From Deltaproteobacteria bacterium (GTDB lineage: Bacteria; Desulfobacterota; GWC2-55-46): 64,000 nucleotides of DNA. Positions 25,370-51,135 of the stretch are shown piece by piece (positions within the stretch are counted from its first letter, which is position 1; each line of letters opens with the position of its first letter). Made by a program: the position numbers and the translations under genes. The notes under the pieces are model-generated. The model did no database searches. It was not told the origin of the DNA and saw only the letters and a program-made list of their open reading frames with translations. The stretch is from the NCBI GenBank assembly GCA_016177845.1, contig JACOUO010000003.1:124001-188000 (forward strand), given 5' to 3'.

Positions 25370-26197
25370 TTAGGCCAATTCAGGAATAGGCCCAAACATC
25401 TCCATCTTCTTGCCAAGGGATTTGCGGAGCTTCTTTAAAGCCTCGCTCTCTATCTGCCGGACGCGCTCCCTCGTAAGCCCGAGCTTATTGCCAAGCCCCT
25501 GCAGGCTTTCGGGCTCATCAGCCATTACCCTGTTTTCAATCACGATACGCTCTTTTTCATTTAAGACGGCAAGGGCGTTTGTGACCTCCCTTTTGGCTAT
25601 CGCGGTCTCCTGCTTTATCGCGACTACCTCAATAGGGGTAGGGCCGCTGTCAGCAAGCATATCGAGGTGCGTTGCCTTGTCATCTGATTCTGATAATGAC
25701 CTGTCCAGCGAAAAGTCGTTCGAGAACCCGAAGTCCTCTGAACTTGTGGCGGCTGAGGTGCTCTCGTCATTGATATCAATGACAGCAGCCCCGTCGCCCT
25801 TTTTGTAAAAAAGCTGCCTCTTTAAGGCCTTTGCGTTACGCTTTACAATACCCTTGGTCTTGAGGATATAGTCCTGAATGCAGGATTTTATCCACATGGT
25901 CGCATAAGTGATAAGGCGGAAACCTTTGTAGGGATTAAACTTTTTTACGGCAATCATCAGCCCGATGTTGCCTTCCTGAATAAGGTCAGCCAGCCTGCAC
26001 CCGTAATTGCGGAATTCAAGTGCTATCTTGATTACATACCTAAGGTTAGATGTGACAAGGATGTGCGCGTCCTCAAGCTTCTTTTCGTTGTAGAAGCGCT
26101 CAGCGACCTTGAACTCGTCCGCCTGTGAGAGCACAGGATAGCGGTTTACTTCTGCCAAATAACTCTGCAGGTTATCGGACAGTACCGGTAGACTCAT
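25370..26197 (-). CDS. rpoH: RNA polymerase sigma factor, RpoH (sigma-32) type
   Basis: The 275-residue factor has an N-terminal YLAEVNRYPVLSQADEF like sigma-32. Region 2 reads DLIQEGNIGLMIAVKKFNP and TYATMWIKSCIQDYIL, and region 4 ends TRERVRQIESEALKKLRKSL. Region 2.4 to 3 (KGIVKRNAKALKRQLFYKKG) resembles the RpoH box but only in part, so another alternative sigma-70-family group is possible. The gene has a consensus promoter and a CIRCE operator immediately upstream, which supports a heat-shock role. The start ATG follows GGAGG by seven bases. Confidence 0.85.
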   Translation of the reverse strand: MSLPVLSDNLQSYLAEVNRYPVLSQADEFKVAERFYNEKKLEDAHILVTSNLRYVIKIALEFRNYGCRLADLIQEGNIGLMIAVKKFNPYKGFRLITYATMWIKSCIQDYILKTKGIVKRNAKALKRQLFYKKGDGAAVIDINDESTSAATSSEDFGFSNDFSLDRSLSESDDKATHLDMLADSGPTPIEVVAIKQETAIAKREVTNALAVLNEKERIVIENRVMADEPESLQGLGNKLGLTRERVRQIESEALKKLRKSLGKKMEMFGPIPELA

Positions 26198-26211
26198 CTT
26201 TTAACCTCCGT

Positions 26212-26238
26212 TTAGCACTCTTAATTTATGAGTGCTAA
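26212..26238. promoter_or_regulatory. CIRCE operator (HrcA binding site)
   Basis: TTAGCACTC, a 9-base spacer (TTAATTTAT) and GAGTGCTAA match the CIRCE consensus at all 18 positions. It lies between the -10 box and the rpoH start codon, overlapping the predicted transcription start. The HrcA repressor should block rpoH transcription when chaperone capacity is sufficient. hrcA itself is not in the window. Confidence 0.95.
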
Positions 26239-26240
26239 AT

Positions 26241-26269
26241 ATTATAGAAATAAAAGGTTAAATTGTCAA
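26241..26269 (-). promoter_or_regulatory. Consensus sigma-70 promoter of rpoH
   Basis: On the minus strand TTGACA (26264-26269), a 17-bp spacer and TATAAT (26241-26246) match the consensus 12 of 12. It directly precedes the CIRCE operator. Such a strong promoter makes sense only if held down by a repressor. Confidence 0.9.
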
Positions 26270-26281
26270 GTAGGCTCGGAC

Positions 26282-27220
26282 TTAGCCTGTTTCAGGCAGG
26301 AAGCTCGGCAGGTTGACACCGTTGAATTGTTGAAACTCGCCCCTTACCTGAAAGAGATGGGTCTCCACATTGATTGCGCCCCAACTGTAGAGCGTCTCAA
26401 CCAGCTTTCGCCTGTCCATGGGTATTACCATAAGTGGAGCAAGCCCTTTGAACCTGTCGAGTTCTTTTAATATTAGGGCGGCTGTGTCGTCTTCTGTTCT
26501 GGCAACACAGGGACCGAGCATATTAAGGGCGGGGTGCCTGACCGATATCATAAAACCTTCGATGGCACCCCCATTTGGGCTTTCAAGCACAGAGGCATGG
26601 AAGTAGCCCCTCTTGTTCTCAATGCAGTAGCGGTAGTCCTTCTCTCTTGTTATGCCGCTTACCTCCAATTCCAGGGCTGCCATGGCAGGAATGTCATCCA
26701 ATACTGCATCCCGTACCCGCCCTCTTCCTTCTGTCGTGGCTTTCATGCCTGCAAGCGGCACATTCACTACCATGTCATGGTAGACATGGCGGGGCACGAA
26801 CCCTGCCCTGTTATAGAGTGAAAAGGAGTTCATGTTTATCGCGCTTCCGACGAGGCGCAGCGTCTTATAGCCGTTTTTCTCTGTAAAATCGATGATATGG
26901 TTAACAAGCGCCTTGCCTATGCCAAGGCCGCAGTAATTCTGGTGCACCGACATGATGCCGAGGCTTACATGGCGTTCACGGGGATGGTAGAAGCAGGAAC
27001 CCATGAGCATGCCTGTCTCTGAATTTACGGCTGCTACATTGCATCCGGGGTTCAGGTCATTGTAAACATCGAAAAAGACCTCAGTTACCCTCGGCCCTCC
27101 CTTGAAATAATCGGTAGGCCAGCCGTGGGTCCTGTACCAGTAATTGAAGGAGCCGTACAAAAGCTCTGAATACTCGTACTTGTCATCAGGGGTCAAGGGG
27201 CGGAGCTGGTACTTTACCAT
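26282..27220 (-). CDS. Two-domain GNAT N-acetyltransferase
   Basis: The 312-residue protein has a first GNAT domain with the acetyl-CoA motif VHQNYCGLGIGKALVNHIIDF near residue 93, followed by SFSLYNRAGFVPRH. The second half (from about residue 165, VRDAVLDDIPAMAALE) starts a second GNAT fold that lacks a clear pyrophosphate loop, so it is probably non-catalytic. Substrate is unknown. It ends 13 bases before the rpoH promoter, on the same strand. Confidence 0.82.
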   Translation of the reverse strand: MVKYQLRPLTPDDKYEYSELLYGSFNYWYRTHGWPTDYFKGGPRVTEVFFDVYNDLNPGCNVAAVNSETGMLMGSCFYHPRERHVSLGIMSVHQNYCGLGIGKALVNHIIDFTEKNGYKTLRLVGSAINMNSFSLYNRAGFVPRHVYHDMVVNVPLAGMKATTEGRGRVRDAVLDDIPAMAALELEVSGITREKDYRYCIENKRGYFHASVLESPNGGAIEGFMISVRHPALNMLGPCVARTEDDTAALILKELDRFKGLAPLMVIPMDRRKLVETLYSWGAINVETHLFQVRGEFQQFNGVNLPSFLPETG

Positions 27221-50668: not shown

Positions 50669-50899
50669 TTAACAGCTCGGGCAGCCTGAACAGCCGGGCT
50701 TGCCTGAGTCCTTTTTGCCCTTTTTGGAGTAATCGTCAGCAAACCAGCCGCCCCCCTTGAGCTGGAAAGAGGACTGGGAGATGAGCTTTTCCACGGTGCC
50801 TTTGCAGTCAGGGCATTTTTTAATGGGCTCGTCCGAAAATTTTTGGATTACCTCGAATTCTTTCTGGCATTTTTTGCATTTGTATTCGTAGATAGGCAT
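50669..50899 (-). CDS. FmdB-type zinc-ribbon regulatory protein
   Basis: The 76-residue protein begins PIYEYKCKKCQKEFEVIQKF and has a second pair KKCPDC, giving the CxxC...CxxC ribbon. It ends PGCSGCPSC, a cysteine-rich tail. This is the FmdB/CxxC_CXXC_SSSS family, named from a putative regulator of formamidase; the real role is unknown. Confidence 0.9.
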   Translation of the reverse strand: MPIYEYKCKKCQKEFEVIQKFSDEPIKKCPDCKGTVEKLISQSSFQLKGGGWFADDYSKKGKKDSGKPGCSGCPSC

Positions 50900-50933
50900 T
50901 ACGGTTTCCTCCGGTCAATATTAATCCCTATAT

Positions 50934-50962
50934 ATTGTAGGGCCGGGAAAGTACAATGTCAA
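50934..50962 (-). promoter_or_regulatory. Promoter of the FmdB-like gene
   Basis: On the minus strand TTGACA (50957-50962), a 17-bp spacer and TACAAT (50934-50939) match the consensus 11 of 12. The start codon is 34 bases beyond the -10, preceded by CGGAGGA. Confidence 0.75.
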
Positions 50963-51135
50963 TTTTAAAATTCTGCGGGGTTTTTGAGCCTGCCGGAAGA
51001 TTTAATTGATGAAGATAAAAAATGTGATTAAAAACATGGACTAAGCGGCTTTGAAATGCGAAAATAGACGCAACTCAGGCTTTTGTAACTGCTCAATGTG
51101 ATTCACCTTTTTTGTTTTAATCATAATTTTGTTCC

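Follow-up and report, generated by a model that had tools for sequence, protein, structure and literature searches.

A conserved CIRCE element on the rpoH promoter suggests that the HrcA circuit stands above the sigma-32 circuit in a deltaproteobacterium and its relatives

The window analyzed here, that is, the whole 64,000-nucleotide stretch of DNA from a Deltaproteobacteria bacterium (GCA_016177845.1, contig JACOUO010000003.1), contains a gene for a divergent sigma factor of the sigma-32 type, rpoH. The features of this locus are shown in Table 1. The ATG start codon of rpoH lies at 26195-26197 on the minus strand, and the promoter region is 84 nt long, being bounded upstream by the end of the acetyltransferase gene. 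The promoter matches the sigma-70 consensus at 12 of 12 positions, and a CIRCE element follows its -10 hexamer after a gap of 2 nt. The original prediction had claimed a full-consensus promoter and an 18/18 CIRCE on rpoH, and the letters at 26195-26269 agree with it one for one. It had also claimed that the CIRCE overlaps the start of the transcript. When the start is placed by convention about 7 nt past the -10, the predicted position is near 26234 and lies within the CIRCE, in line with that claim. The rpoH promoter of the window does not have the C-rich part of the sigma-32-like promoters described below; that is, it is a plain sigma-70 promoter.

Table 1. Features of the rpoH locus in the window
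Feature	Position	Strand	Basis
-35 TTGACA of the rpoH promoter	26264-26269	minus	sequence
-10 TATAAT of the rpoH promoter, 17-nt spacer from the -35	26241-26246	minus	sequence; kept across the order
CIRCE (predicted HrcA operator), perfect TTAGCACTC-N9-GAGTGCTAA	26212-26238	minus	18/18
Shine-Dalgarno GGAGG of rpoH	26205-26209	minus	sequence
rpoH, divergent sigma-32-type sigma factor, 275 aa	25370-26197	minus	TIGR02392 best model
GNAT-type acetyltransferase gene, upstream of rpoH	26282-27220	minus	Pfam PF00583 and list of open reading frames

With up to 3 mismatches allowed, the rpoH CIRCE was the only one in the window; shuffled sequences gave an expectation of 0.01. When the whole 3.0-Mb genome was searched, two CIRCE sites were found, namely the perfect one at rpoH and one with 1 mismatch upstream of groES, and the reversed control pattern gave zero sites. 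The expectation from composition is 4.6e-5 perfect sites in 3 Mb. Given this value and the two sites in the genome, a chance origin of the rpoH CIRCE is excluded.

The sigma factor itself was then compared with protein family models. TIGR02392 (RpoH) was the best of all models, and its score of 222 bits was below the cut-off of 323. NF005143 gave 221 bits and likewise did not reach its cut-off of 241. The RpoH models scored 68 bits above RpoS, and among the 8 sigma-like loci in the genome this protein was the best RpoH match by about 50 bits. Alignment with members of the same order showed that region 3 is shorter by about 20-25 residues in RpoH of the order and that the RpoH box is changed, reading KALKRQLFYKK where the canonical protein has QAQRKLFFKLK (QRKLFF has become forms such as KRQLFY). 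These two changes account for the low model score. The RpoH proteins of other families in the phylum scored above the curated cut-off, and both region 3 and the RpoH box are kept in them. A single clear counterpart of the gene was found in 43 of 48 genomes of the order. Judging from these sequence comparisons, we call the protein an RpoH-derived sigma factor, whose contacts with DNA and with chaperones may differ from those of canonical RpoH.

The 43 rpoH genes obtained from the 48 sampled genomes of the order were examined for an upstream CIRCE, allowing up to 2 mismatches. The element was present in 21 and absent in 22. The -35 sequence CTTGACA occurred in 33 of the 34 promoters scored, and in 20 of the 21 genes with the element, the CIRCE started 1-2 nt past the -10. 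The promoter-CIRCE unit of four genomes (G015, G016, G017 and G043) is located 164-264 nt from the start codon of rpoH, and the spacing of 1-2 nt is still kept. The CIRCE thus tracks the promoter and not the start of the gene. The N9 loop varies freely between species, and the arms are fixed.

Outside the order, all 38 rpoH genes examined in 11 families of the phylum had the CIRCE (f13 9/9, f14 3/3, f16 3/3, f19 2/2, f30 6/6, f47 7/7, f51 2/2, f74 1/1, f83 3/3, f93 1/1 and f97 1/1); several of these elements carry 1-2 mismatches, and one (G267) has an 8-nt spacer. No CIRCE was found at rpoH in the remaining families examined. A perfect CIRCE also precedes rpoH in a metagenome-assembled genome of Geobacter sp. 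UBA6151 (L014). G178 possesses two rpoH genes (L237 and L247), each with an upstream CIRCE containing one mismatch (TTAGCAGTC), and other members of its family have similar sites. A CIRCE with the 8-nt spacer, which a search with fixed N9 misses, was seen upstream of groES in L153 (G039) and L154 (G038) and upstream of rpoH in L115 (G267). We therefore dropped G038 and G039 as cases in which rpoH alone has a CIRCE.

The genome of the window contains a single intact copy of hrcA (TIGR00331, 311 bits with a cut-off of 197). The two checks that had been proposed, the search for CIRCE at rpoH of relatives and the search for hrcA in the genome, thus both gave positive results. As read from the translations, hrcA forms an operon with grpE and dnaJ, and dnaK is not the next gene after them. 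The CIRCE of groESL lies 142 nt upstream of groES. It is upstream of an RpoH-type -35, 7 nt away, whereas at rpoH the CIRCE is downstream of the -10. At hrcA itself, no CIRCE was found in 30 loci of the order, including that of the window's genome, with spacers of N7-N11 and up to 4 mismatches. Judged by motif, the predicted HrcA regulon is reduced to groESL and rpoH, and any action of HrcA on its own operon should be indirect.

Most hrcA loci of the order (L075-L104) have their own conserved promoter, CTTGACA-N17-TATCTT or TATTTT, in whose spacer CCGTTGG is partly conserved. The idea that hrcA belongs to the promoter class of clpB and groES was unsupported, since hrcA has this promoter of its own and its scores with the clpB matrix were intermediate. 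A candidate of that class (16.9 bits) is located 48 nt upstream of hrcA only in the window's genome.

The promoter class in question was defined as follows. Upstream of clpB in 27 genomes of the order, we found CTTGACA, a spacing of 17-18 nt, and a -10 with an invariant C in front of it. A matrix was trained on these clpB sites alone and then scored on other genes, with random 250-nt pieces of the window as the null (median -5.2 bits, 99th percentile 8.6 bits). The matrix recovered a groES promoter in every one of the 27 genomes, with scores of 11.5-28.2 bits, and an hsp20 gene adjoining clpB in the window's genome had a site of 24.8 bits. Neither clpB nor hsp20 has a CIRCE of its own. The groES promoter reads CTTGACA-N12-GGCCAT, and the class common to clpB and groESL across the order reads CTTGACA-N12-NNCCAT, which fits CTTGAAA-N11/16-CCCCAT, the sigma-32 consensus used for delta-proteobacteria. 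The RpoH of the window presumably reads this class. Within the window, the highest match (18.1 bits, 50931-50963, minus strand) precedes a small gene for a zinc-ribbon protein (50669-50899) by about 31 nt; this gene is possibly a further target of RpoH.

We think that HrcA, bound at the CIRCE, would gate sigma-70 transcription of rpoH, so that the HrcA circuit is placed upstream of the sigma-32 circuit, and we give this reading a probability of roughly 85%. The housekeeping sigma-70 polymerase would transcribe rpoH from the full-consensus promoter, and HrcA would block it from the CIRCE, which lies just past the -10 and includes the predicted start. In Bacillus and Chlamydia, GroE promotes the activity of HrcA, and unfolded proteins titrate GroE (PMC6032397); we infer both HrcA binding at the rpoH CIRCE and sensing through GroE for the bacterium of the window. 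That is, misfolded protein would titrate GroE, HrcA would be released, and groESL and rpoH would be derepressed. RpoH would then drive the genes with CTTGACA-N12-NNCCAT promoters, namely clpB, an hsp20 and still more groESL. When refolding makes GroE free again, HrcA would shut off groESL and rpoH. In this scheme, groESL would receive both the HrcA and the RpoH signals, which would make a feed-forward loop. The 22 rpoH genes of the order without a CIRCE mean that the element is not indispensable, and in the window's genome, rpoH could also be transcribed by read-through from the upstream gene.

The original prediction had described two heat-shock circuits wired in series. The conservation and the promoter evidence support this arrangement, in which the HrcA binding and the RpoH reading of the promoters are our interpretation. 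It had also named, as a refutation, a sigma factor that does not control heat-shock genes. In favour of such control are the rank of the protein as the closest RpoH match among the sigma-like loci and the sigma-32-like promoters shared by these genes, which presumably depend on RpoH.

The inverted repeat at rpoH might instead act not as a DNA operator but chiefly through an RNA hairpin that forms at the 5' end of the mRNA and affects stability or translation. The arms of the CIRCE do form a 6-bp stem in the predicted 5' leader of rpoH, and CIRCE hairpins influence mRNA stability in Bacillus. However, the folding of the whole rpoH leader is not unusual (z -1.35). Moreover, the exact letters of the operator and its distance of 1-2 nt from the -10 are kept even in genomes whose rpoH start codon is 160-260 nt away. 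A bare stem needs no exact letters, and the conservation of the letters therefore speaks against the hairpin, which we regard as very improbable. Still harder to believe is that the CIRCE and promoter of rpoH are an evolutionary leftover to which HrcA is now irrelevant. About half of the rpoH genes of the order have lost the CIRCE or never had it, which speaks for a relic. In the window's genome, however, it is the rpoH site that is perfect and the groESL site that carries the mismatch, and it is the loop, not the arms, that is free to differ between species.

A different doubt concerns the sigma factor. HrcA may repress rpoH, but if the product is no longer a heat-shock sigma factor, the two circuits are not in series. 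The score of 222 bits against the TIGR02392 cut-off of 323 and the loss of the RpoH box, together with that of most of region 3, speak for this idea. On the other hand, the protein leads all other sigma-like loci of the genome as an RpoH match, most genomes of the order contain one clear counterpart of it, and a sigma-32-like promoter class is common to the heat-shock genes. We thus consider such a change of function improbable and prefer the reading that HrcA gates the expression of a heat-shock sigma factor.

The rpoH genes without a CIRCE usually still have the promoter CTTGACA-N17-TATAAT. The presence of the CIRCE requires 7 changes on the best RpoH tree, and at least 2 when well-supported branches are considered. 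A C at -2 before the -10 of rpoH was found in 11 of 13 genes without the CIRCE as compared to 3 of 21 with it (Fisher p 8e-5, with kinship ignored). When kinship was taken into account, only 2 supported independent contrasts were available, too small a number for a test, and these mostly pointed the expected way and did not reach significance; the association of CIRCE loss with C at -2 is therefore kept only as a lead. Since this C is fixed in the clpB promoters of the order, it can be read as a sign of RpoH autoactivation at rpoH without CIRCE. We tentatively raise the doubtful possibility that rpoH in the order alternates between sigma-70 transcription gated by HrcA and, where the CIRCE is absent, activation by RpoH itself through the C at -2.

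Ueki and Lovley, cited in PMC2725144, reportedly studied in 2007 the RpoH of Geobacter sulfurreducens, a relative that is amenable to laboratory work. CIRCE autoregulation of the hrcA operon is common and not universal. The wiring of CIRCE on rpoH is not new, having been predicted in 2004 for G. sulfurreducens, in which a perfect CIRCE is located at -51 of rpoH and further elements lie on groESL and hrcA (Rodionov et al. 2004, PMC545781, Table 8). The window's genome resembles that bacterium in possessing a perfect CIRCE close to rpoH (at -41 here), hrcA, and a CIRCE on groESL. In contrast, hrcA-grpE-dnaK-dnaJ of G. sulfurreducens has a CIRCE and the order of the window has none there, and RpoH is shortened in this order. 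Compared with the HrcA/CIRCE regulon of Bacillus subtilis and others, the operator letters, the N9 spacing, the intact HrcA and the groESL target are the same, whereas here a sigma factor is among the targets and the hrcA operon stands outside the regulon. Compared with the proteobacterial sigma-32 regulon, the best profile is likewise RpoH, and clpB and groESL likewise have a CTTGAnA-N12-nnCCAT-like promoter; the difference is that rpoH here is apparently under a DNA-binding repressor and that its product has neither the canonical RpoH box (QRKLFF) nor most of region 3. In the literature searched, which was thin in subscription papers, we found no further reports of CIRCE on rpoH, and neither hrcA without CIRCE nor an RpoH that has lost the RpoH box together with most of region 3 was found there as a feature of this order.

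Repression by HrcA and activation by sigma-32 are commonly regarded as parallel routes for the heat-shock response. Our results suggest that the two circuits are stacked across much of the phylum, with the sigma factor subject to the repressor. They also suggest an old arrangement that has been lost on some occasions. What is specific to the order is the position of hrcA outside its own regulon, together with the shortened RpoH. The arrangement of HrcA over RpoH offers a testable example of one regulatory circuit set above another.
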